DNA from: Tahibacter amnicola
GTDB taxonomy: Bacteria; Pseudomonadota; Gammaproteobacteria; Xanthomonadales; Rhodanobacteraceae
NCBI RefSeq assembly: GCF_025398735.1
Contig: NZ_CP104694.1
Coordinates: forward strand, 4,303,001 to 4,367,000
Direction of reading: 5' to 3'
Length of the DNA: 64,000 bases
In this document: piece by piece, positions 9,054-47,457 of the stretch
Layout of the letters: each line of letters opens with the position of its first letter
Position numbering within the stretch: the stretch's first letter is position 1
Notes under the pieces: generated by a model
Databases searched by the model: none
What the model saw: only the letters and a program-made list of their open reading frames with translations
What the model was told of the DNA's origin: nothing
Translations under genes and position numbers: made by a program

Positions 9054-9769
9054 TCCGGTTCCACCACCAGCGACAGATACACTTTCTTCCCGCTGTCCGG
9101 ATCGCGCACGTAAGCATTCCGGTAACCCATGAACGAAAGGGCACGCAGACGATCATAGAAGTCGCGGAAACTGCCACGCTGGTCGAGATCGATCTCGCAC
9201 AGACGGTCAAAATCGGACTTGCTGTGCATGTTTCCCTCCTCACTCATTGGCTGCGATTCACCGTCAGCGTGAATCAACGCGTGCAAGTTATGACGCAGAT
9301 AGCGTTTCTCAGCATCAATGACACGCCGGTACGCCGTATACGATGTGTCGGAGAACAACACCGGCACTTCTTCGCGATACAAAATGTCGCCGTGATCCAG
9401 CGCCTCATCCATCCGATGCACTGTCATGCCCAGCTTCAGCCCACGGAGGATGGCAAAGACCTGCGGAAACCAGCCGCGCGTGTCCGGATTGTGGCCCGGG
9501 TGGATATTGACGCAGCGGACAGCCCGCACCAGTGCAGACGGAAATCGCTGCTTGGAGTGCAGCGAAACAATCAGCCGATATCGCGCGATCAACGCGTCGC
9601 ATCCGGTGCGCACATCGACCACGTCGATGTCGGGACGGGCGGCAAGCGGACCCTGCCGGGAACAACCGAACGTCACGTCCGCGATACCCTTTTCCACTAC
9701 CAGGGCCTGCACGAACTCAAAGAGCTCGACGTTATCGGTCAATACCAAGCTGCGGAACGGATCAGCCAT
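9050..9769 (-). CDS. dTDP-4-amino-4,6-dideoxyglucose-type N-formyltransferase
   Basis: A 239-residue sugar N-formyltransferase that would move a formyl group from N10-formyltetrahydrofolate onto the 4-amino group of a dTDP-4-amino-4,6-dideoxyhexose. The catalytic Asn and His lie in VNIHPGHNPDTRGWFPQVF (N88 and H90), and LDHGDIL at 124-130 supplies the catalytic Asp region. The PG-NP-RGWFPQVF stretch is what I recall as characteristic of the VioF/FdtF-type subgroup rather than methionyl-tRNA formyltransferase. The ATG at 9769 overlaps the stop of the preceding aminotransferase gene, the enzyme that would make the substrate. A TTG at 9787 is a less likely alternative start. The pairing strongly suggests Qui4NFo, or its 4-epimer, in the polysaccharide. 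Confidence 0.87.
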   Translation of the reverse strand: MADPFRSLVLTDNVELFEFVQALVVEKGIADVTFGCSRQGPLAARPDIDVVDVRTGCDALIARYRLIVSLHSKQRFPSALVRAVRCVNIHPGHNPDTRGWFPQVFAILRGLKLGMTVHRMDEALDHGDILYREEVPVLFSDTSYTAYRRVIDAEKRYLRHNLHALIHADGESQPMSEEGNMHSKSDFDRLCEIDLDQRGSFRDFYDRLRALSFMGYRNAYVRDPDSGKKVYLSLVVEPE

Positions 9770-10986
9770 TCGGCCGCGCCCCGTCAATCAGGCAACCGAT
9801 AATGTCGCACACCATGTGCACGGACGGCAGGTCCGTGCCGGTACCCGTGGGCAGCACCATAACGTGCTGCGCGACGGCTTCCGTGTTTGGCAACAGCAGG
9901 CCGGCGTGGGGATACAAATCGCGATAGGGTTGCATGCGATGGCAGCCCGGCCAGAAGTACTTCCGCGCCAGGACATTCTCAGCGTGCAGGCCGCTGACCA
10001 TTTCGTCGCGCGTCACCGGGCACTCCGGCCCCACTTCCACGACGACATACTGGTAATTGGGCGTATCCCGATCATCGTAGGAAAGCACGCGCAGGCCCGG
10101 CAAGACACCGAGACGTTCCCGGTACGCACGGTGGTTACGCCAGTTCACTTCAACCACATAGTCAATGTAGTCAAAGTTCGTCAGCCCGATAGCAGCCGCC
10201 ACCTCGGTCATCTTTCCATTGGTACCTGGATAGATGACGTTATCGTAGCCGGCGAATCCGAAGTTGCGCATCAGGCGCATCTTCTGCGCCAGCGCGGCGT
10301 CGTTGGTGACAACCGCCCCCCTCGCCCGTGTTGAAGAATTTTGTCGCATGGAAACTCAGCACCTCGCAGGCACCGAGCCCTCCCAGACGACGCCCCTTGT
10401 AGCCGGCACCAAAAGCGTGGGCGGCGTCGTACATGAGTTTGAGGTGATGTTCGTCGGCGATTGCCTGCAAGGCCTCGTGCGGCGCTGCGCGTCCCCACAG
10501 GTGCACGCCGATGATTCCCGTCGTCCGCGGCGTGATCATCCGCTCGACGGCAACGGGATCGAGATTATGTGTCTCCGGATCGATGTCGGCGAATACGGGC
10601 GTGATCTCCTGCCAGTGCAGCGCATGTGCCGTCGCGACGAAAGTGAAGGACGGAATGATCACCTCGCCGGACAATCCCAACGCCCGGATCGCGATCTCCA
10701 GGGCGACCGTGCCGTTGCACATGGCGACGCAATGGCCGACGTCCAGGTGAGCCGCGATATTCGCCTCAAGCTCCTGCACCATTGGGCCGTTATTGGTGAG
10801 CCACTTGTTGTCGAGCATGGTGATCATGCGCTGGATCAGCACATTGCGATCACCAAGATTGGGACGTCCGACGTGGAGCGGCTCGCCAAACGCGGGGGCG
10901 GCACCGTGGATGGCCAAGTCCGCCGGCCGGCGTACGGATTTGGTCAGCACGTTGCTGATATTCGGATTCAACAGGGCAACGGTCAT
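9762..10986 (-). pseudogene. vioA: DegT/DnrJ/EryC1 sugar aminotransferase (VioA/QdtB-like), broken by a frameshift
   Basis: The PLP-dependent enzyme should convert dTDP-4-keto-6-deoxyglucose to dTDP-4-amino-4,6-dideoxyglucose. The first part (from ATG 10986) carries NKWLTNNGPMVQELEANIA, a substrate/PLP region HCVAMCNGTVALEIAIRALG, FADIDPETHNLDP and the PLP lysine in SFHATKFFNTGEG. The frame is then lost at a run of six C on the plus strand (10316-10321). The rest continues in another frame as GAVVTNDAALAQKMRLMRNF to the TGA at 9762. Removing one base or adding two restores a protein of about 407-408 residues, normal for the family. The next gene is the formyltransferase that would use the product. 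It is either a recent mutation or a homopolymer sequencing error; I favour error because both halves are otherwise intact. Confidence 0.88.
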
Positions 10987-11173
10987 GGCGTCGTCCCTTT
11001 CGCGGAAACGCTGCGTCGAAAGCCGGACAGTGGGGTCAGCAAAGAATACTGCACGGCCCCGTAGCCGGCAGGGGTGGCTGACGTCCAGACACGTTCACGG
11101 CGACGTCGAAAACCGCCTAGCGCTGTCCGCCGACACGACAACTGCCGGAGCGCCTCCAACGTCGTGAGATCGG

Positions 11174-12382
11174 TCACCGGGAACCCCCGCCAGCACACAA
11201 CCACCGCGACAGATCAGCCACGATACGCTCCGCCGCATGGCCGTCCCATTTCTCCGGCACGCGCCCACGCTTCCCGCCGGTTTCCAGAATATCGCGGACA
11301 CATTGCCGAATCACCCGGGCGTCCGTGCCGGTCAAGGTGTTGGTACCCTGTTCGATCGTGACAGGACGTTCCGTGTTTTCACGCACCGTCAGGCAGGGAA
11401 CACCCAGCGCGGTGGTCTCTTCCTGGATGCCACCGGAATCGGTAAGCACGAATGTGGCGTCTGCCATGAGCCCGAGCATCTCGAAGTATCCCAGCGGGGC
11501 TAGCGCAACGACGTCGGGCTGGTCGAGGAACCCCTGCAGGCCAGCAGCCTGCAACGCCTGGCGCGTGCGCGGATGGACCGGGAATACCAGGGGGATATCG
11601 TGCGCAATCTGGTCCAGGACCTGTACCAGCCGCGACAGGGCCCCGCCGTCGTCCACGTTGGACGGTCGATGCAGGGTGACCACGGCGTAGCCGGCTTCCG
11701 CCAGCGGGCCTGCACCTGCGGCAGCCAGGGTCTGGGCCGCCGGAACGGCACGGTCACGATGCGTGAGCAGGGTGTCGATCATCACGTTGCCGCTGAACAC
11801 GACGCGATCGTCGGGAATGCCTTCCCGGCGCAGATTGAGGCAGGCGGCGGGCTCGGTGACGTACAGGCGATCACTCAGCTGGTCGGTCAGCAACCGGTTC
11901 AGTTCTTCGGGCATTGCGCGGTCACCCGAACGCAGCCCGGCCTCCACGTGCACGACCTTGATCTGCTTCTTCGCCGCCACCAGGGCGCAGGCAATGGTGG
12001 AATTCACGTCACCGACCAGCAGGATGCAGTCCGGCGCCACCTGGTCGAGCACCCGCTCGAATCGCAACATGATGGTAGCGGTCTGCACAGCGTGACTGCC
12101 GGAACCGGCCTGCAGGCAGATGTCCGGTTCCGGGATACCCAGTTGCGCGAAGAATTGCGTGTTCATTGCCACGTCGTAGTGTTGACCGGTATGCACCAGC
12201 ACGACGTCGATGGCTACTGCGGTGGAAGTCGACGACAGCGCGCGCAGCAACGCAGCCATCTTGACGAAATTAGGCCGTGCCCCAACCACGGCGACCAGCT
12301 TCACACGCGGCGTCGATTGACCGGCACGCGGCCCGGCCGGGCGGATCATTGCAGGAACATCGGTCGATTCGACTGCACGCAT
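11174..12382 (-). CDS. wecB: UDP-N-acetylglucosamine 2-epimerase (non-hydrolysing)
   Basis: A 402-residue enzyme interconverting UDP-GlcNAc and UDP-ManNAc in the cytoplasm. Signature stretches are VAVVGARPNFVKMAALLRAL at the N-terminus, VHTGQHYD, VVHVEAGLRSGD, ATLHRPSNVD-like VTLHRPSNVDDGG, and the C-terminal LTDSGGIQEE with TVRENTERPVT. I chose the ATG at 12382, where the conserved sequence begins soon after; a longer frame upstream has no family character. The enzyme implies ManNAc, or a derivative made by enzymes encoded elsewhere, as a precursor for the surface polysaccharide. It sits 37 bases after the ligase gene and 187 bases before the aminotransferase gene. I recognise nothing in that 187-base gap. 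Confidence 0.93.
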   Translation of the reverse strand: MRAVESTDVPAMIRPAGPRAGQSTPRVKLVAVVGARPNFVKMAALLRALSSTSTAVAIDVVLVHTGQHYDVAMNTQFFAQLGIPEPDICLQAGSGSHAVQTATIMLRFERVLDQVAPDCILLVGDVNSTIACALVAAKKQIKVVHVEAGLRSGDRAMPEELNRLLTDQLSDRLYVTEPAACLNLRREGIPDDRVVFSGNVMIDTLLTHRDRAVPAAQTLAAAGAGPLAEAGYAVVTLHRPSNVDDGGALSRLVQVLDQIAHDIPLVFPVHPRTRQALQAAGLQGFLDQPDVVALAPLGYFEMLGLMADATFVLTDSGGIQEETTALGVPCLTVRENTERPVTIEQGTNTLTGTDARVIRQCVRDILETGGKRGRVPEKWDGHAAERIVADLSRWLCAGGGSR

Positions 12383-12419: not shown

Positions 12420-13883
12420 CTACCGCATGGTATGCAATTCACCAGAACGCTGGGAAGTATCAGAAGATACTTCCGGATAATGCCGTAGCACACCCGGTGC
12501 CGGCGGCGGACGGGTCAGAAGGCCCGCCAGCACGGCGGCGACCATTGCCGCGAGCGGCGCGCGCGCCGGGAAATCCACCAGCCCGTGCAGGAGAAACAGC
12601 GCCAACCCCAACGCACAGGGCCACTGCAGGGCACGAAATCCGTCCGACACGTTGCGTCGCCAATAGCGCCACAGCGCATAGCCAACACCTCCTGCGACGG
12701 CCAGGTACAACAGTGGACCAAGAATGCCGATCTCGAAGGTCAGTTCAACCAGATCGTTGTGGGCCCGATTGACGTAATAGGGCTTGAGCGATGCCACCGT
12801 CTCGAACGTGGCGAAAATGTCCGCGAACGTGCCAGGACCGCTCCCGAACGGGAACATCGCCAGTGCCGCACGCCAGCCTCGTCCGAGCAACGTGAAGCGA
12901 CCGTCGGCGAACCCGTCTTCGGTAAAACGTTCCAACGCATGCATCCAGGCGTACTGGGACACCACCGCCACCAGCACCAGCAGACTCAACGCAATCGACA
13001 ACAATCCGCGATGACGTTGCCGCGCCAATGCCAGCCATCCGGCAGTCAGCAGCACGGCGAGGAAACCCAGGCTGATGCCCGCGCGTGAGCGCGAAGCGAC
13101 GAGCCCCGACAGGCACACCAGCAAGGCAAGCGCATACAGCCACCGCCACGCCAATACGTGGACGTCGGCATCCCCGGCCGTGCCACGCGCCGCCAGGACA
13201 CAGAGCACGGGCAAGCTCATGACGATCAGCGACGCCAGGTGATTGCGATTGGCGAATGCCCCGGTCGCGCTGTAGAGGTCGGCAGGTCCGAACAGTCGCA
13301 GCGGGCCATCAGCACCGCCCTGCAGCTGCGCCAGACCCCACAAGGCCTGCAGCGTCGCCAGCGCAACCAGGCCAATAATCACTGCCGTGCGCTGCTCCCC
13401 GGGCAAGCGACACGTCGCCACGAAGACGGCCACCACCGGCACGCACTTTAGCCAGGCACGCCAGGTTTCGTCGGTGGCCAGCGACAGGGGCAGCGCCGGC
13501 ACCTTGCCAGCCGTGTCCGCCAGGAAGGGTTCGAGCAATACAGCACGTCCCGGCAGCGCAGCGATGAAGTCAATCGGCCATGGAACCAGGTAAAGCCCCG
13601 GAACGAGCGCCGCGAAGACGCCCAGGCAGATCCAGGCCGTCGTGCCCCGCCACTCCAGCGCCGGCCGACGCCAGGACGCCAATGCAAGGCACGGCAACGC
13701 CGCCAGCGCCAGCACGCTGTCGCGCCACGAAAAGAACGACCAGCCGCCCATCACGGCGGCACACGTCAGCACCACGCCAACAGACACGGCCAATGCGGAC
13801 GTGCCGTATCTGGTTTCTTCCGGCAGAAATGAAGCGGGGCCCGTCCGGGCCCCGCGGGAATACCGTGCAGCCACGACGGCCAT
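12420..13883 (-). CDS. O-antigen ligase/polymerase family membrane protein
   Basis: A 487-residue protein with about twelve hydrophobic segments. A large periplasmic loop contains the region ATGAFANRNHLASLIVMSLP and later FGSGPGTFADIF, features of the Wzy_C/O-antigen ligase (WaaL) family. It would either ligate or polymerise undecaprenyl-linked glycan in the periplasm. The gene follows the FecR-like gene by only eight bases and precedes wecB by 37, so it belongs to the operon. A Wzy-like protein is encoded at 3773-5308 and another family member at 31606-32730. Sequence alone does not decide whether this one is the ligase or an alternative polymerase. Confidence 0.83.
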   Translation of the reverse strand: MAVVAARYSRGARTGPASFLPEETRYGTSALAVSVGVVLTCAAVMGGWSFFSWRDSVLALAALPCLALASWRRPALEWRGTTAWICLGVFAALVPGLYLVPWPIDFIAALPGRAVLLEPFLADTAGKVPALPLSLATDETWRAWLKCVPVVAVFVATCRLPGEQRTAVIIGLVALATLQALWGLAQLQGGADGPLRLFGPADLYSATGAFANRNHLASLIVMSLPVLCVLAARGTAGDADVHVLAWRWLYALALLVCLSGLVASRSRAGISLGFLAVLLTAGWLALARQRHRGLLSIALSLLVLVAVVSQYAWMHALERFTEDGFADGRFTLLGRGWRAALAMFPFGSGPGTFADIFATFETVASLKPYYVNRAHNDLVELTFEIGILGPLLYLAVAGGVGYALWRYWRRNVSDGFRALQWPCALGLALFLLHGLVDFPARAPLAAMVAAVLAGLLTRPPPAPGVLRHYPEVSSDTSQRSGELHTMR

Positions 13884-13891
13884 GGCGTGCG

Positions 13892-14380
13892 CTACTGGCT
13901 GATCGGCGGAACGACGACGCCATCGTCGTCGTCATTGTCGTCGTTGCGTCTCTCGAAGTAATAGGCCGTCGGGATCAGGAGGACTGCTGCAACCAGCCAT
14001 TTCTGGCCATCCGTCAGTGTGGTGGTGGCGTCGCCGGTTGCGGCGTCCGTCTCGCCCAGGGCTTGCCGGAACGAGGTCGGCTTGCCGCCGAACTGCAGGC
14101 AATCGGACTTCTCACCGATCGTCACCATCGAATCGCCTGCCAGGGTCTGCTCGCAGCCATCAGCGAACGCGACCAGGGCCTTCGAATCGCTGAGGGTCAT
14201 GAGGCGGTCGCCAGCAGCGAGAATGGCGCCCTCCTGGGCTGGCGTGAACTCGCTGCCCCTCGACAAGAGTACTTGTCCCTTCACGGCCATGACCGTGGCG
14301 ACGGCAGGGGCCAGCTGCTGGCCCGTGGCGACCGTGGCGGCCAGCGCCAAGGTCAGTGACAACGCTACTCGATCGAACAT
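13892..14380 (-). CDS. Small exported FecR-like protein with C-terminal membrane anchor and acidic tail
   Basis: A 162-residue protein of unknown function. The ATG at 14380 is preceded by GGGAG at good spacing. Residues 1-20 look like a signal peptide. Residues 30-75 (ATVMAVKGQVLLSRG, then GAILAAGDRLMTLSDSKALV) resemble the small FecR-type beta domain. Residues about 130-146 (KWLVAAVLLIPTAYYF) form one membrane helix, followed by RRNDDNDDDDG, a strikingly acidic run, and a Pro-containing end. Two cysteines flank the FecR-like part. It lies within the polysaccharide operon, eight bases before the ligase gene, so a periplasmic accessory role in assembly or anchoring is plausible but unproven. 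Confidence 0.75.
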   Translation of the reverse strand: MFDRVALSLTLALAATVATGQQLAPAVATVMAVKGQVLLSRGSEFTPAQEGAILAAGDRLMTLSDSKALVAFADGCEQTLAGDSMVTIGEKSDCLQFGGKPTSFRQALGETDAATGDATTTLTDGQKWLVAAVLLIPTAYYFERRNDDNDDDDGVVVPPISQ

Positions 14381-14436
14381 GACGTGCTCCCTTTCTGCCT
14401 TTGCCATTCGGGGAGTTTTCTGCCGCGAATGGCAGT

Positions 14437-15777
14437 CTATTGCTGCGTTTCACCTGGCGCAAGCGAACTGACCGAAGCGGGATTTTCCGCCGGAAAACCG
14501 GCGTTTTGCCCGGCGTTCCCGAAGTCACCGGCGGTGATGACCCGCAGGTCGTCGAACCATGCGGTGCCGCTGATCTGTCCCTCCGCCGCGATGCGCGCGC
14601 GCGTCGCCAACGTCAGTCGCTGTGCCTTGCAGTCGGCGGGAACGTCGACGCCGAACTGGAAAGACTGCCAGCCCGTCGTACCCCGCATCGGTTCGCTGCG
14701 TCCCAGGGAGCGCGTCGGCGTTCCGAGGCAGTCGAGTACCCATTCGAGCCCCCGCTCGGATTGCAACGCGTCGAGTCGCACCTGTCCCATCACCGCAAAA
14801 CGTCCGGGCGGCAGGAGCAGGATCTGGGAAACATGGGTGAACGCCACGCGCTGGTTCGAAAAATGCACCCTTAGCGCGTGACCGGCCCGGTCCCGTTTGT
14901 CGGTCACCGTGGCTGACGCACCGGCGAGCGACTGTATCCGCCAGTCAAATCCCGTGTTGGTCGGCGCACGCTCGAAATCGCCGTTGTGAATCGCATTGCC
15001 CGGCGCCATCGGTGCAGGCAACGACTGGCGCCACAGGATGTACGCCGGCTCCACCGCCTGGTCGCGTATCAGCCGCTCGACCAACGCAGACAACTCGTCG
15101 GACGTCGGTGGAAAAACGGACTTACGCAGCCCTTTCACTACTTCGACCGTAGAAGCGATGACGGACGAATCGCCCTGTGCGCAAGCCAGGAGAAACGCGG
15201 TTCGCCAAGGGGGATTGCCCGCCAGCACGTCGACGAAGGCCGCCGGCGCACCCGGTTGCGTCAACCACACCCTCAACGCGGGAAACAACTTCTTCGCCCG
15301 CACGGGCGTCAGCCGCAGGATGACGTCGACGTGTTCGAGTGCCGAACGCCACTGGCCGCGCAGCAACGCCGCATCCGCCAACCAGATACGCGCGGGAATA
15401 TCCGCTGGCAACAAACGGATCGCGCGCTCCAGCTGCGTCTGCGCCACGGCGGTTTCGCCCCGTCGGTGGGCTACTTCGCCAAGGACGCGATACACCCGAC
15501 CGTCCGCCGGCCTCTGCAGAAGCAGCGCGCGCGCGCGCTGTTCGGCCTGCGGCAGATCCGGCGTGGCGGCGCCCGCGGCCCTCTCGGCCAGACGCAGCTG
15601 CGCTCGCGCATTGTCGGGCTGCCACGACAGCGCCAGCGCCGGATCGGCGTGCTCGAACGCGGCGCCCATTCCCATCTGCAGCGATCGCCATCCGATGAGC
15701 CCGGCGATGATTGCGACCACGGCCACCCGCAAGACCGCGCGGCCCTGGCGTGCCTCAGCCGCGATGACCACTGACAT
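14437..15777 (-). CDS. Membrane-anchored TPR protein with C-terminal jelly-roll-like domain
   Basis: A 446-residue protein. Residues about 16-34 form an N-terminal membrane anchor. Residues about 45-190 contain TPR-like helices (for example ADGRVYRVLGEVAHRRGETA followed by IPARIWLADAALLRGQWRSA). Residues about 270-425 look like an all-beta, carbohydrate-binding-like jelly roll beginning at NAIHNGDFERAPTNTGFDW and ending with GTAWFDDLRV, a common ending for such domains. The protein probably acts in the periplasm at the inner membrane as a scaffold or glycan-binding factor of the export machinery. Its start overlaps the preceding NTF2-like gene by 23 bases. Function is inferred only from architecture and location. 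Confidence 0.8.
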   Translation of the reverse strand: MSVVIAAEARQGRAVLRVAVVAIIAGLIGWRSLQMGMGAAFEHADPALALSWQPDNARAQLRLAERAAGAATPDLPQAEQRARALLLQRPADGRVYRVLGEVAHRRGETAVAQTQLERAIRLLPADIPARIWLADAALLRGQWRSALEHVDVILRLTPVRAKKLFPALRVWLTQPGAPAAFVDVLAGNPPWRTAFLLACAQGDSSVIASTVEVVKGLRKSVFPPTSDELSALVERLIRDQAVEPAYILWRQSLPAPMAPGNAIHNGDFERAPTNTGFDWRIQSLAGASATVTDKRDRAGHALRVHFSNQRVAFTHVSQILLLPPGRFAVMGQVRLDALQSERGLEWVLDCLGTPTRSLGRSEPMRGTTGWQSFQFGVDVPADCKAQRLTLATRARIAAEGQISGTAWFDDLRVITAGDFGNAGQNAGFPAENPASVSSLAPGETQQ

Positions 15778-16627
15778 TGTGCTGCAGCTTGGTTATTCGA
15801 AGGTTGCCGCCGGTGCGCCGAAGACCCAGCACGATCGCTCCGGTCACCGGCTTCGCGTTTGCGTCGCGCGCCCCCACGACGGCTTCGTAGCGGCCCCGGC
15901 CAATCGCCGAGTCCGCCGCGATTTCCCATTGCATGCCGCTGAGGGTCAGGCGCCGCGGTTCGCTGCGTTCAAACAGGCGGCGATAGTCAGTACGAATGCG
16001 CTCGATGCCCCCCTCGTTCGCCTCGACATCTTCGCTGAAGAGAGAAAGGAAATCATCCACATTATCGGATGAGTACAGCTGCTGGAACCGCTCCTGCCAG
16101 GCACGCACCTCCGCTTCCGAAAGACGCGACGGAAGCGGGACTTCGCTCGGTAATCCAGCAGGTGGCCCACGATAGCGTGGAGGCCCGGCGCCCGACGACG
16201 CGGAACCCGGCATCGCTTGGACTTCAGTGGCACGCGCAAGCGGTTCCGCCACCACCGCCTCGACGGCCGGCCTGGCGGACACCGATTCGTTGCCCGCCCC
16301 GACCTGCTGCAGCACTTGCAACGTCGGCGCTCCGGAAAGGGCGATGTCGCTCACCCGGACTGGCAAGGCTTCGACCTCGAGCCCGATGGCCGCGGCAGCC
16401 AAGGCGGAGCGCACCGTTGGTACGGCCCGCGGAAGGACCTCGCCAGCAGGTTCTGCGTGTTGCGCAACGGGCACCGAATCCGCCGCAGTGGCAGGCGTCA
16501 CTCTCGCCTGCCAGCCGTCATCTTTGGCACTCAACCAGATCCACAGTCCAAGGACCGCCACGCAAGTCACCGCACTGGTTCCGATCACTACATTCGGCAG
16601 GCGACGCACCCAGCGTCCAGGCAACAT
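15755..16627 (-). CDS. Membrane protein with C-terminal NTF2/SnoaL-like domain (probably the 3' part of the J-domain gene)
   Basis: A 290-residue product from the ATG at 16627. A single membrane helix lies near residues 11-33 (NVVIGTSAVTCVAVLGLWIW), followed by a Pro/Ala-rich linker and a C-terminal domain from about residue 165 (SEAEVRAWQERFQQLYSS, then DDFLSLFSEDVEANEGG) that looks like an NTF2/SnoaL fold. Protein-like sequence (PPLHLHDAERWPVPMLPG) continues upstream of this ATG in the same frame to a run of six C at 16674-16679. One extra base there would join it to the J-domain gene at 16588-17133, giving a protein of about 459 residues. I therefore think the two entries are one gene. Function within the polysaccharide operon is unknown. 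Confidence 0.75.
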   Translation of the reverse strand: MLPGRWVRRLPNVVIGTSAVTCVAVLGLWIWLSAKDDGWQARVTPATAADSVPVAQHAEPAGEVLPRAVPTVRSALAAAAIGLEVEALPVRVSDIALSGAPTLQVLQQVGAGNESVSARPAVEAVVAEPLARATEVQAMPGSASSGAGPPRYRGPPAGLPSEVPLPSRLSEAEVRAWQERFQQLYSSDNVDDFLSLFSEDVEANEGGIERIRTDYRRLFERSEPRRLTLSGMQWEIAADSAIGRGRYEAVVGARDANAKPVTGAIVLGLRRTGGNLRITKLQHNVSGHRG

Positions 16628-17133
16628 CGGCACTGGCCAGCGCTCGGCGTCATGCAGATGCAACGGCGGCAATCCCCCCTGCCAGTGACTGCGTCCTGCA
16701 GCAATCCCGGCGACAACGACAGGTCGTAGGCCCTGCGCCGCTGCGGCGTGCGCAGCGAGTTCCAGGCACGTGTCACCCGGTCTGCGAACACGGCATGATC
16801 GTTATGCGGGTGCCGATCCGGGTGCAGCCATCGCATCAGCCAGCGGTAGTGTGCTTTGACACACTCGGCGGACGCGTCCGGCGCTACGCCCAGGATCCGG
16901 TAACTGTCGGCCTTTTCGTCGAACAGCAATTGCGGCAGGAAAAAGATGGCCGCTTCACGCAGCTGCTGCGCCGGCACGTGCGTGCTGAGCGCGATGGCAT
17001 TCGCGGTGGCCACATCACCGGCCGCCAGCCGGATCACTTCGATCAGGTTTCCGGGCAGCGCACGATGGCACAGCTGCCGGCCGAGACTCGGCGTGCGGTA
17101 CACCCCCAGCATCAGATCCAGTGCATCGCTCAC
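16588..17133 (-). CDS. J-domain protein of the polysaccharide operon (probably the 5' part of a split gene)
   Basis: From the GTG at 17133 (an in-frame ATG lies at 17112), the first 70 residues form a helical region (RALPGNLIEVIRLAAGDV, then QQLREAAIFFLPQLLFD). A J domain follows from about residue 76 (DSYRILGVAPDASAECVKAH) with the HPD motif in RWLHPDRHPHND, which would stimulate an Hsp70 ATPase. After AYDLSLSPGLLQDAVTG the sequence becomes cysteine-rich and unlike a protein (CRRCICM...CRCC), while the other frame reads well. This indicates a lost base in the G6 run at 16674-16679. The intact protein would be a cytoplasmic J domain attached through one helix to a periplasmic NTF2-like domain. 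It sits 12 bases after the autokinase gene. Confidence 0.78.
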   Translation of the reverse strand: MSDALDLMLGVYRTPSLGRQLCHRALPGNLIEVIRLAAGDVATANAIALSTHVPAQQLREAAIFFLPQLLFDEKADSYRILGVAPDASAECVKAHYRWLMRWLHPDRHPHNDHAVFADRVTRAWNSLRTPQRRRAYDLSLSPGLLQDAVTGRGDCRRCICMTPSAGQCRCCLDAGCVACRM

Positions 17134-17145
17134 GACGGCGCCTGG

Positions 17146-19470
17146 TCAATGCCGCACAAGGGATTCTGCGGTGGCCTTCTGGGCCAGCTGCCGGGCCGGC
17201 GGCGCATTGCCGTAGGCGTAGCCGTAATCGCCGTATCCATAGCCATAACCGTATCCATAGCCGCGTCCGCTGGAACGCGAATCCAGCTTGGTCAGCACGA
17301 CTCCGAGCAGGCGCGCGCGCGCCGACAGCAGGCGCTTGAGCACGCCCCGGGCGTAACCCAGCCGTGTTCCGCCAGACTCGACCACCAGCACTGTTCCCGC
17401 TGCCAGGTTGGAGAGAATGGCCGCGTCGGCGATGCCAAGCACAGGCGGGCCATCGATGATCACCTGGTCGAACGACTCGGCGGCCAATCGCAGCAGCGCG
17501 GGCATTTTCGGCCCCGCCAGCAATTCGGCGGGGTTCGGCGGCAGCGGGCCGGAACACAGGCAGGCCAGCCGCTTCTCGTGTGTCGGACGAAGGAACTGCA
17601 GCGGACGATTGGCGCCGGACAGGTAGTTGCTCAGCCCCCCTGCATTGCTGATGCCCAGTGCCTTGTGCAGCGACGGGTTGCGCAGGTCCGCATCGATCAG
17701 GAGAACGCGTTTTCCCAATTGCGCGAAATGCAAACCCAGTGTCAGCGCGGTCGTGCTCTTGCCCTCACCGGGCGTGGAGCTGGTGACGAACAAGGTGCGC
17801 GGAACGCCGGTTTCGGTGGAAAACTGCAAGGCCGTACGCACCGACCGGTAGGATTCGGAGAACGCCGAGCGCGGGTCTTTCACTTCCACCAGCGGCGAAC
17901 TGCGGCGCACGCGCGGGATCACGCCCAGCACCGCCAGCCCGAACTGGCGCTCGACATCTTCCGGCAGCTTGATGGTGTCATCCAGGTGCTCGAACAACAG
18001 CGCCAGCAGTATGCCACCGGCCATCCCGGCGAGGAGCGCGAGCAACAGGTTGCGGGTAAGGCTGGGACTGAAACGGCTGAGCGGAGGGCGCGCGCGATCC
18101 ACAATGGAAATATTATTGGCGCCGATACCGCCGGCAACGCCGATCTCCTTGTAGCGCTGCAGAAGACCGTCGTAGAGCTGGCGGTTGGTATCGACCTCGC
18201 GTTTGATGATGTTGTACTTGATGCTGCGTCCCTGCATGTCCAGCACGGCGGTCTTCAGTTCACCCAGTCGCGCGGTGAGCATCGATTCCTTGCCCTGCGC
18301 CGCATCGAACTCGGCCTTGACCGCTCCTTTGACGCGGCCGATTTCGCTGCGCAGCTGGGCGTCGATCTCGTCGATCTGGCCCTTGAGCTGTTCCATGGCC
18401 GGATAGCCCGGCTTGTAGATGCGCAGTTTTTCCTGGTATTCGGCGTGCAGTTCCGCACGACGCTGCTTGAGCTGTCCGATCACCGGGCTCGCCAGCACTT
18501 CCGGCAGCGATTCGCCACTGGTCTGCAGCGAGCGCCGGAACTTGGCCTCTGCCTCGATGCGCTGCTGCTGTGCCGTGGCCAGGCCCTGGTTGATCACTTC
18601 CATTTCCTGCGACGCCAGCGACTGGCGCTCGTCGATGTTGATGATGCCTTCCTGCTGGGCGAATTCGACCAGCTGCTTCTCCGAATCTTCCAGCTTGAGC
18701 TTGAGCTGCTGCAGGCGATCTTCCAGGTACGTCTTGGCATAGGCCGACGCGTCAAAGCGGCGGTCGATATTGGAGGCGATGAAGGCGTCTCCGACGGCAT
18801 TGGCCATCGTTGCGGAGAACTGCGGATCGAGGCTGTTGAAGTGCACGCGGACCAGGCGCGAATTGCGAATCGGTTCGATCAGCAAATGCCCGAGGACAAA
18901 TTGGGTCAGTGCGTCGCGACCGACAACCTGCGCCGCGTCTTCCGAGGCGACCGCGGGTGTGGAGCGGAACAGGGCGAGCATGCCCGCCAGGACCGACGGC
19001 GCAGACATCCGTTGCACCACCGCGTTCTCTCCCAGCGCGTGCTGTTCCACCACACGCTCGGCAAGCGTCCGGCTCTTCAGCAACTCGTACTGGGTCTGGT
19101 AGAAGTCGCGATCACCCAGCCCTTCGGCCGGCATCAGGCCATCCCCCTGGATCACCTTGATCGTGTCGCGATCGATCTGCAGGGTCGCCGTGGCGCGGTA
19201 GGTTGACGGGGTCATCAGCGTGATCAGCAGCACCACCACGACCGTCGTCGCAAGCACCGACAACACCACCCATTTGCGCTTGAGCAGGATCTGCCAGTAG
19301 CTGAGGAGGTTGACCGGATCGTCCGGCGTCACCTCCTGGGCACGCACCTCCAGCAGTCCGTGCGGCGGCCGCAATGCCACGACATTGGAGGCCGCCGGGC
19401 GCAGCGCCGGCACGCGCGGTACCGGCGAGTGGCCCTCGGAATGCCCTACCAGGTTGTTGTGATCACTCAT
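17146..19470 (-). CDS. wzc: Wzc-like polysaccharide co-polymerase / bacterial tyrosine autokinase
   Basis: A 774-residue inner-membrane protein from the ATG at 19470. An N-terminal Wzz domain begins with a helix at about 68-88 (KRKWVVLSVLATTVVVVLL). A long periplasmic coiled coil and a second helix (LLALLAGMAGGILLALLF) precede the BY-kinase domain, with Walker A in SSTPGEGKSTTALTLG, Walker A' in LLIDADLRNPSLHKALG and Walker B in VIIDGPPVLGIADA. The C-terminus carries the tyrosine cluster GYGYGYGYGYGDYGYAYGN, the autophosphorylation tail. It sets chain length and works with the Wza-like exporter and the CpsB phosphatase, both encoded just upstream. Fusion of co-polymerase and kinase is the proteobacterial arrangement. 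Confidence 0.95.
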   Translation of the reverse strand: MSDHNNLVGHSEGHSPVPRVPALRPAASNVVALRPPHGLLEVRAQEVTPDDPVNLLSYWQILLKRKWVVLSVLATTVVVVLLITLMTPSTYRATATLQIDRDTIKVIQGDGLMPAEGLGDRDFYQTQYELLKSRTLAERVVEQHALGENAVVQRMSAPSVLAGMLALFRSTPAVASEDAAQVVGRDALTQFVLGHLLIEPIRNSRLVRVHFNSLDPQFSATMANAVGDAFIASNIDRRFDASAYAKTYLEDRLQQLKLKLEDSEKQLVEFAQQEGIINIDERQSLASQEMEVINQGLATAQQQRIEAEAKFRRSLQTSGESLPEVLASPVIGQLKQRRAELHAEYQEKLRIYKPGYPAMEQLKGQIDEIDAQLRSEIGRVKGAVKAEFDAAQGKESMLTARLGELKTAVLDMQGRSIKYNIIKREVDTNRQLYDGLLQRYKEIGVAGGIGANNISIVDRARPPLSRFSPSLTRNLLLALLAGMAGGILLALLFEHLDDTIKLPEDVERQFGLAVLGVIPRVRRSSPLVEVKDPRSAFSESYRSVRTALQFSTETGVPRTLFVTSSTPGEGKSTTALTLGLHFAQLGKRVLLIDADLRNPSLHKALGISNAGGLSNYLSGANRPLQFLRPTHEKRLACLCSGPLPPNPAELLAGPKMPALLRLAAESFDQVIIDGPPVLGIADAAILSNLAAGTVLVVESGGTRLGYARGVLKRLLSARARLLGVVLTKLDSRSSGRGYGYGYGYGYGDYGYAYGNAPPARQLAQKATAESLVRH

Positions 19471-19516
19471 GACCGCCCACCTTGGCTGCGTGTCAGAGGC
19501 CTTCCGGGCGAGACGC

Positions 19517-20275
19517 CTAGAATGGCCTGAACAGGGCAAACACGGGCACGGATTCGATGAACCGCCGCAGCGCCGTCTTGCGACCGGATTGCTCGACGAC
19601 GACGATGTCGTCGCCATAGATCAGGGGGTCTTCCGCCCGCCCGGCGCGGATGGCGGCGATATCGAACACCGCGGCCATCTTCTGCCCGTTCACGACGCGG
19701 AAGATCACAACGCCTTGCAGATTGGCCAGTTGGTCCAGCCCCTCGGACATCGCCAGTGACTGCAGCAGCGTGGTCCTGCCAGTCAGGGAATAGATACCCG
19801 GCTTGCGCACGGCGCCTTCGACCGTGACGCGCTGGCTGGTGAATTCTTTAATAAATACACTGACCTGCGGGTTCTGGATGTACCCGTCAGCGAGCTTCTT
19901 TGCGATATCGCCTTCCAGCTCGCCGATGGTCCTGCCCCCGGCCTGCAGGGTGCCGATAAGGGGCAGCGAGATCTGCCCCTGGGTGTTCACGCGGACCGAT
20001 CGCGTCAGCTCCGCGACCTGGAACACGTTGATCTCGATCAGGTCGTTCGGACCGATCCGGTATTCGGACGCCGCCTTGAACTCGCCCGATTGACCGATGG
20101 CGTCTGGCGGCGGCATGGCGGCGGTGCCGCTCTTTGCGACGGGACGCGCTTCACGCGGCTGCAGGCTCGGCTGTGTGGCGCAGCCAGCGATCAGCATGCT
20201 GACGAGCGCAGCAAGCCCGAGTGCACCACGCCACGTTTTCCATTTCGCTGCAAACCCGGATGCGCTCAACGCCAT
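19517..20275 (-). CDS. wza: Wza-like outer-membrane polysaccharide export lipoprotein
   Basis: A 252-residue lipoprotein. The signal peptide ends in the lipobox LIAGC (Cys at about 32). A poly-export domain follows (EYRIGPNDLIEINVFQVAEL, then QISLPLIGTLQAGG and IAKKLADGYIQNPQVSVFI), and then an SLBB-type segment (QRVTVEGAVRKPGIY). It is much shorter than E. coli Wza (about 380 residues), as in other short OPX proteins, so it may lack the alpha-helical outer-membrane barrel. It would form the periplasmic/outer-membrane export channel with the Wzc-like protein encoded 46 bases downstream. Its start overlaps the phosphatase gene by ten bases. Confidence 0.93.
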   Translation of the reverse strand: MALSASGFAAKWKTWRGALGLAALVSMLIAGCATQPSLQPREARPVAKSGTAAMPPPDAIGQSGEFKAASEYRIGPNDLIEINVFQVAELTRSVRVNTQGQISLPLIGTLQAGGRTIGELEGDIAKKLADGYIQNPQVSVFIKEFTSQRVTVEGAVRKPGIYSLTGRTTLLQSLAMSEGLDQLANLQGVVIFRVVNGQKMAAVFDIAAIRAGRAEDPLIYGDDIVVVEQSGRKTALRRFIESVPVFALFRPF

Positions 20276-21066
20276 GGCAGCAGCTCCTGGATGCGTCCCC
20301 AGGCGGGGACTTTTCGGGCAGGCGACAGTTCGACCGGCATGGCAACCCGATCGGGCAGTTCGTTACGCAACACCGCTCGCGGACGGTCGTTCACCAGCCG
20401 GCTCGCCTCAGCCTCGCCGACACGTTGGGCCGCCGCGTCGCGCCCTTCCGCCAGGCAGGGCGGCCGCTTGTCGGGGCTGTGTGCGTCGGTGGCAAGCAGG
20501 TGCACCAGCCCTTCGGCAAGCATCCGGTCTGACCAGTAGCGTGGCCGCCGTCCAAAACGCCCGGTCAGCGACCCGGCGGTGAGCTGCATCCACACGCCAC
20601 GCCGGGCCAACCGTTGCATGACGTCGTAGTGGCTTTCGATCCAGGTCAAGCGCTCGGGATGCGTCAGGATCGGCACGTAACCCGCCGCCGCCAGCTCGAA
20701 CACCGACGCCTCGAATCGCGGCGGCGCCACGTGATGCGGCGGTTCCAGGAGGAAGTAGCGCGAACGATGCAAGGTCGGCACGGTGCCGGCACGGAGGCGC
20801 TCGAGCAGGTCCGGCGCCAGGTGGACATCCGCGCCGACCACCAGCTGCAGTGAGATATGGCGCCTGGCGAACGCGGCGCTCAGCTGCGTGACCGCCCGCT
20901 GGATGCCTACCGCCGTGTTTTCATACAGGCCCGGGTAGATATGCGGTGTGCACGCCACCACCCGAATGCCATCCGCTACTGCCTGGGCTGCCATGGCCAA
21001 TGACACTTTCAGGTTCGCGGCACCGTCATCGATGCCGGGCAGCAGATGGCAATGCAGGTCGATCAT
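20266..21066 (-). CDS. CpsB/CapC-type (PHP family) tyrosine-protein phosphatase
   Basis: A 266-residue metal-dependent phosphatase of the PHP fold. It opens with MIDLHCHLLPGIDDGA, the first metal-binding motif, followed by VVACTPHIYPGLYEN, the histidine-containing second motif, LEPPHHVAPPRFE, PILTHPERLTW and LATDAHSPDKRPP. These are the landmarks of CpsB/YwqE enzymes that dephosphorylate the tyrosine tail of the polysaccharide kinase. Here it replaces the low-molecular-weight Wzb phosphatase of E. coli. It overlaps the wecA-like gene at ATGA 21066-21063 and the wza gene by ten bases. It acts in the cytoplasm on the Wzc-like protein encoded two genes downstream. Confidence 0.93.
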   Translation of the reverse strand: MIDLHCHLLPGIDDGAANLKVSLAMAAQAVADGIRVVACTPHIYPGLYENTAVGIQRAVTQLSAAFARRHISLQLVVGADVHLAPDLLERLRAGTVPTLHRSRYFLLEPPHHVAPPRFEASVFELAAAGYVPILTHPERLTWIESHYDVMQRLARRGVWMQLTAGSLTGRFGRRPRYWSDRMLAEGLVHLLATDAHSPDKRPPCLAEGRDAAAQRVGEAEASRLVNDRPRAVLRNELPDRVAMPVELSPARKVPAWGRIQELLPWR

Positions 21067-46327: not shown

Positions 46328-47457
46328 TCAGGACGTCATCCGCTCCCAGAACTGCTTGACGCCGTCGAACCAGGAGCTGGCCCGCGGTGTATGGGCGCCG
46401 GGTTCGCAGCCTTCGAACGTTCCCTCAAACTCCTCGAGCAGCTCGCGCTGGCGCTTGGTCAGCTTGACGGGAGTTTCGACGACTACGCGGCAATGCAGGT
46501 CGCCCAGGCGACCACTGCGCACGTTTCGCACGCCCTTGCCGCGCAGGCGGAAGAGCTTGCCGGTCTGCGTCTCGGGCGGCAGCGTGATGACGGCCTCGCC
46601 ATCCAGCGTCGGCACCTTGAGTTCCGAGCCCAGCGCCGCCTGCGAGAAGCGGATCGGCACCTCGCAGTAGAGGTCGTCACCTTCGCGCTGGAAGATGGGA
46701 TGGTCGCGCACGCGCACTTCCACATACAGGTCACCGGGCTCGGTGCCACTTGGGCCTGCTTCGCCCTGCCCCGTCAGGCGAATGCGGTCGCCGGAATCGA
46801 CGCCAGCCGGAATCTTCACCTGCAACTTGCGCTCGTCTTCGACGCGGCCTTCGCCACGGCAATCGCGACAGGGGTTGCTGATCGCCTTGCCGGTGCCCGC
46901 GCAGTGCGGACACACCTGCTGCACCGAGAAAATACCCTGCTGCATGCGCACGCGGCCATGCCCCCGGCAGGTGTTGCAGGTGGACGTCTTGCCGTCCGCC
47001 GATCCGGTGCCGGTACAGGTCTTGCAGCTGACCAGGGTCGGTACTTCGATTTCGCGGTCGATGCCGAAAACGGCTTCTTCCAGGTCGAGCTCAAGCATGT
47101 AGCGCAGGTCGGAGCCGCGCCGGGGCGCTGCGCGCCACCGCCACGGCCCATGCCGAAAATGTCCGAGAAAATGTCTCCGAAGATGTCGCCGACATCGCCG
47201 TGGAATCCAGCACCACCGCGACCGCCCATGCCGGCCTCGAAGGCGGCGTGGCCGTGCTGGTCGTAGAGCGCGCGCTTCTGCTTGTCGCAGAGCACCTCGT
47301 AGGCCTCCTTGGCCTCCTTGAACTTCTCCTGCGCGTCGGCGTCCGGATTACGGTCCGGGTGGTACTTCATCGCCAGGCGGCGAAACGCCTTTTTCAGGTC
47401 ATCGTCGTTGACGTTGCGTTCGACGCCGAGGACTTCGTAGTAATCGCGCTTGCTCAT
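46328..47457 (-). CDS. dnaJ: Chaperone DnaJ (frame broken by an apparent one-base loss)
   Basis: DnaJ delivers substrates to DnaK and stimulates its ATPase. From the ATG at 47457 the J domain is intact ([18 protein letters not shown], with HPD in [18 protein letters not shown]) and the Gly/Phe region runs to [11 protein letters not shown]. The frame is then lost at about 47119-47126 (GGGG run on the plus strand). The rest, from [19 protein letters not shown], is in the next frame: four zinc-finger repeats ([32 protein letters not shown]) and the C-terminal substrate domain to 46328. One extra base gives exactly 376 residues, the length of E. coli DnaJ, so a sequencing error is more likely than a real null. 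It lies 435 bases from dnaK. Confidence 0.93.

Follow-up and report, generated by a model that had tools for sequence, protein, structure and literature searches.

A membrane J-domain protein encoded beside wzc in Tahibacter amnicola, its gene apparently split by a missing base, may recruit DnaK to the Wzc polysaccharide machine

In a polysaccharide locus of T. amnicola, two neighbouring open reading frames on the minus strand encode a J domain (16588..17133) and a transmembrane (TM) helix followed by an NTF2-like domain (15755..16672). Positions are those of the window, the whole stretch of 64,000 nucleotides that was analysed. Are these one gene or two, and what would a J-domain protein do in such a locus? 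The original prediction was that a single gene had been broken at a run of six cytosines. Our overall reading, with a probability of roughly 0.6, is that the locus encodes a single-pass membrane J protein of a family tied to wzc, that this protein recruits DnaK to the Wzc machine and that its gene is split by a missing base.

The run (CCCCCC) was confirmed, and one extra G on the coding strand at this position joins the two frames into a protein of 459 residues, in agreement with the length of about 459 proposed from one added base:
15755..17133, minus strand: almost certainly a single gene, for a membrane J-domain/NTF2-like protein of 459 amino acids once joined (joined frames and relatives)
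16674..16679, minus strand: C6/G6 run, the site of the frame break (sequence, frame joining and codon model)

A codon model with frequencies trained on the same genome placed the best point for a frame switch at transcript nucleotides 441–455, the G6 run lying at nucleotides 454–459. Upstream of the run frame 0 alone scored well; downstream, stops accumulated in frame 0 and frame 2 was open. The prediction that membrane-protein sequence extends 5′ of the first ATG of the second frame was borne out by an alignment that crosses the break, between ERWPVPMLPGRWVRRLP of T. amnicola, which starts 5′ of this ATG, and TERSPMPLLSARAVRRLP of T. aquaticus. Intact relatives align to residues of the J gene on either side of the break, and PF13577 (SnoaL_4) passes its cut-off of 24 in the joined protein only (24.3 versus 22.5 bits). 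An intrinsic coding-potential scan for frame breaks was discarded as too noisy: it listed 30 candidates over 400 kb of T. amnicola and 20 in a congener, most of them gene ends, and the J-gene site was not in the list; we therefore relied on tblastn breaks and on run-length counts.

Homologues encoded as two separate genes, which would speak against the join, were looked for, and the relatives instead encode one frame. Among 40 relatives, three congeners (G004, G006 and G002, with fused homologues also recovered as loci L003, L004 and L005) carry the whole protein in one frame at 39–42% identity, as do two further genomes of the same order (G035 and G038). A scan of 84,980 species genomes yielded 34 loci, in which all copies uncut by a contig end are single frames, those from Lysobacterales with one hydrophobic helix near residue 160–195. 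The fused homologues sought beside wzc in other Lysobacterales were thus found, every complete wzc-linked orthologue from that order being one uninterrupted protein. At family level the gene is split in the T. amnicola genome only; the order-level search gave one further broken copy (G1104, L214), which lends no support to a conserved break since its wzc is indel-broken too. We conclude with near certainty that the two frames are a single gene.

The predicted domain order of the joined protein was supported by Pfam and by AlphaFold2 with Foldseek: an N-terminal helical domain, a J domain, one TM helix, a disordered linker and a C-terminal domain that across the family is usually NTF2-like. The parts in T. 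amnicola are as follows:
16918..17133, minus strand: N-terminal helical domain, residues 1–72 (N-J structure model and PDB comparison)
16723..16908, minus strand: J domain, residues 76–137 (PF00226, E 7.8e-13)
16816..16824, minus strand: HPD motif (His-Pro-Asp), residues 104–106 (sequence and alignments)
16532..16591, minus strand: predicted TM helix, matching helix 180–207 of the T. harae model (prediction and model)
15785..16120, minus strand: C-terminal NTF2-like (SnoaL_4/DUF4440-type) domain (Pfam, AlphaFold2 and Foldseek)

No model in Pfam or NCBIfam covers the whole protein. AlphaFold2, run on the T. harae orthologue with 35 alignment rows, was confident in the N-J (1–144) and C-terminal (333–448) domains, and placed a TM helix at 180–207 followed by a low-confidence linker; the N-J part modelled alone reached a pLDDT of 94 and a pTM of 0.88. 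The first 72 residues had no PDB relative outside the J domain in the N-J structure comparison. The J fold itself, with its HPD motif, finds J domains as its best PDB matches (e.g. CbpA, 3ucs, and dnj-12, 2och), and Pfam detects no other DnaJ domain, the combination expected of a class C J-domain protein. This likeness to DnaJ and CbpA ends with the J domain: the wzc-linked protein lacks the G/F region, the zinc finger and the C-terminal substrate-binding domains, and it misses the NCBIfam equivalog cut-offs for both by far. The C-terminal domain of the T. harae orthologue has the cone-shaped α+β fold of the NTF2-like superfamily (Foldseek E 1e-6, TM 0.7–0.75 on targets), in keeping with the PF13577 match of the joined protein. 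It shares this fold with the CaMKII hub and Bd1075, differing from them in being attached to a J domain by a TM helix and a disordered linker, and no catalytic family was identified for it. The NTF2-like domain is expected to be periplasmic.

The gene stands in a recognizable polysaccharide export locus, starting 12 nt after the end of wzc:
20266..21066, minus strand: CpsB/CapC-type phosphatase (PF19567, Pfam)
19517..20275, minus strand: Wza-like outer-membrane export protein (PF02563, Pfam)
17146..19617, minus strand: Wzc-like tyrosine autokinase with a Tyr-rich tail (reading-frame bounds, the real start probably near 19473; reading-frame list and domain search)
14437..15777, minus strand: TPR protein, the conserved next gene (Pfam and relatives' loci)
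13892–14407, minus strand: small FecR-like/LapA-retention-like protein (NF033682, below cut-off; domain search)
12420..13883, minus strand: Wzy/O-antigen ligase-like protein (PF04932, Pfam)

The same setting recurs widely. In each of the 34 loci of the species-wide scan a J gene comes immediately after wzc; most of these loci also have wza and CpsB on the upstream side and genes for TPR, FecR-like and Wzy proteins on the downstream side. The Wzc tails were Tyr-rich in 39 of 39 examined. The gene for the FecR-like/LapA-retention-like protein is conserved in most relatives, as the second one after the J gene. We define the wzc-linked J-protein family by a helical N domain and J domain encoded directly downstream of a Tyr-tailed wzc, a description that the T. 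amnicola gene fits. A profile of the N and J domains separates full matches from ordinary DnaJ and CbpA, which match approximately positions 73–138 only; full matches were present in 37 of 398 genomes of the order, some 18 others among 369 of the class and two others among 398 of the phylum. The J gene is therefore a member of a conserved wzc-linked family and not a local oddity. It had been called unusual within a Wzx/Wzy operon and without an assigned role; the first half of that statement gives way to the 34 wzc loci, while the second stands, as we found no paper in the open-licence literature that links a J-domain protein to Wzc or exopolysaccharide loci.

Family members vary most at the C-terminal end. 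Alphaproteobacterial copies (e.g. L102, L103 and L105) are about 190–255 residues long, with neither TM helix nor C-terminal domain, and from tree position we infer that two genomes (G613 and G337) are Alphaproteobacteria; in the wzc-linked loci L095–L101 the C-terminal domain is divergent or not recognized. The NTF2-like part is thus dispensable for the link with wzc. Other variants carry two tandem N-J domains (L177/L233; in L233 at 9384–11963) or two tandem NTF2-like domains (L226 and L227). One contig, L094, is binned as Rhizobium although its J protein groups inside Arenimonas, and the bin is probably contaminated.

The closest known systems differ in architecture or context. DjlA begins with a TM helix, continues with a TerB-like domain and ends in a J domain, and it has no periplasmic domain. 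Here the J domain comes first (76–137), then the TM helix and then the putative periplasmic NTF2-like domain, so that the DjlA order is not found, and the NCBIfam model for DjlA covers no more than the J stretch, scoring 20–22 bits against a cut-off of 162. What the two share is a membrane anchor and a cytoplasmic J domain, DjlA being a DnaK cochaperone of Gram-negative bacteria, together with ties to extracellular polysaccharide, via Rcs in the case of DjlA, and to envelope machines (PMC11709261, PMC10754441). AtcJ of Shewanella is a short, dedicated J protein that serves a single process and whose gene shares an operon with those of its partners (PMC6715715). It resembles the short alphaproteobacterial forms of the wzc-linked family, but its operon serves cold adaptation and has no link to polysaccharide export.

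What might the protein do? The helical and J domains, on the cytoplasmic side and with the HPD motif intact, would bring DnaK to the Wzc polysaccharide machine in the inner membrane, where the J protein would be held by its TM helix and periplasmic NTF2-like domain. Wzc octamers, or a partner of theirs, could then be assembled, reset or refolded with the help of DnaK during export cycles. Precedents for a cochaperone come from DjlA, which uses its J domain to loosen the membrane complex of IgaA and RcsD and whose overproduction induces capsule (PMC11709261), and which enhances the AcrAB-NodT envelope pump, an effect that depends on HPD (PMC10754441), and from Wzc itself, which cycles between octamer and phosphorylated monomer (PMC8285477). 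That the protein is a dedicated cochaperone acting on the Wzc machine we put at about even odds, with DnaK recruitment, the client, the membrane topology and the mechanism all inferred. More tentatively, DnaK may take apart or reset Wzc octamers, in which case a chaperone, in addition to tyrosine phosphorylation, would set the timing of chain growth and export.

The distribution of the HPD motif bears on this proposal. Among 79 non-redundant family members, 54 have the motif and all 54 are wzc-adjacent, compared with four of the 25 without it (Fisher 5e-15). HPD-less examples adjoin ordinary genes, or lie within polysaccharide loci that have no close Wzc match at their side. The HPD losses fall in a few clades of the tree, one of them a genus within the family of T. 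amnicola, so the Fisher value overstates the evidence; the association does not count independent events, as the combined HPD and wzc label needs as few as three changes on the tree. Still, loss of the HPD motif and loss of the wzc neighbour recur together. The main rival to the cochaperone reading is that the J domain is a DnaK-independent docking module and the protein a structural adaptor between Wzc and periplasmic or export parts. The 25 HPD-less members keep the fold and four remain beside wzc, indicating that a J fold can serve without DnaK, and in two of the loci beside wzc (L166 and L167) an apparent response-regulator receiver domain lies between an HPD-less J domain and the TM helix. 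Against docking, adjacency to wzc is complete among HPD-positive members, HPD loss mostly accompanies loss of the wzc neighbourhood, and H-P-D and the preceding W-L are nearly invariant in Lysobacterales alignments. We regard the docking role as possible but doubtful.

There remains the break itself, which is very probably an assembly error, a base missing at the C6/G6 run. The longest G/C runs in 400 kb of the T. amnicola genome are six bases long, and there are 49 of them; 400 kb of congener G002 has 35 such runs, besides seven of 7 bases and one of 8. Across the whole genome of 6.46 Mb, GGGGGGG matches 58 times, and 20 of these matches fall within one C26 run, whereas G002 has 107 matches in 5.7 Mb and G004 has 143 in 7.3 Mb; G/C runs of at least 7 are thus strongly under-represented. 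The C26 run (G000:C1:1544105–1544130), in a genome otherwise poor in such runs, is possibly an assembly artefact. When G002 proteins were compared with the 400 kb stretch, frame breaks appeared at the J gene, at dnaJ (near 47116 in the window) and, around genome position 4400625, at a C6 run. Two other genes of the window are broken:
46328–47457, minus strand: dnaJ, frame-broken near 47116 (J domain and zinc-finger half in different frames, at 46816..47457 and 46328..47098)
9762–10986, minus strand: DegT/DesI-type aminotransferase, broken at a G-rich stretch at about 10311–10316 (NTGEGG and AVVTND in different frames)

No other full dnaJ was found among the J-domain matches of the genome. The dnaJ break, which is probably an assembly indel, lies at a GC-rich site without a long run. 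The depletion of longer runs and the breaks in the only dnaJ and in the aminotransferase make an assembly error probable, and missing bases most simply account for these breaks, that in the J gene and the others. Further candidate breaks lie at C6 runs at about 4249301, 4400625 and 4519589 of G000:C1, one of them inside a coding stretch longer than 10 kb.

A true mutation in the strain, whether the gene is taken as a pseudogene or as phase-variable through the G6/C6 run, is unlikely. Frame switching is known from polysaccharide loci, the break does lie at such a run, and the broken aminotransferase gene belongs to the same polysaccharide cluster; but a housekeeping dnaJ, single in the genome, is broken as well, at a site without a long run, the depletion of runs of at least 7 is genome-wide, and long runs are absent from the break position in the relatives examined. 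Programmed −1 frameshifting or transcriptional slippage, yielding J-only and full-length proteins, would suit the G6 run and the J-only soluble forms of Alphaproteobacteria (L102, L103 and L105), but we rejected it as highly improbable: the in-frame sequence at the break is not a canonical X XXY YYZ heptamer, neither heptamer nor conserved run occurs there in any of seven relatives, and relatives encode the long form without a shift. A reading as two separate genes, one for a soluble J protein and the other for an NTF2-like membrane protein, can likewise be set aside, for although J-only versions occur elsewhere, the congeners are fused, homology to fused relatives spans the break and protein-like sequence precedes the first ATG of the membrane frame.

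Annotators should note that the T. amnicola genome carries probable indel errors in this window, dnaJ included. If the cochaperone reading is right, a chaperone step would recur in the Wzc-dependent export of polysaccharide across many Lysobacterales and some further Proteobacteria, a step absent, as far as we found, from current models of the pathway. The correlation between the HPD motif and wzc adjacency makes this role directly testable by a single point mutation.
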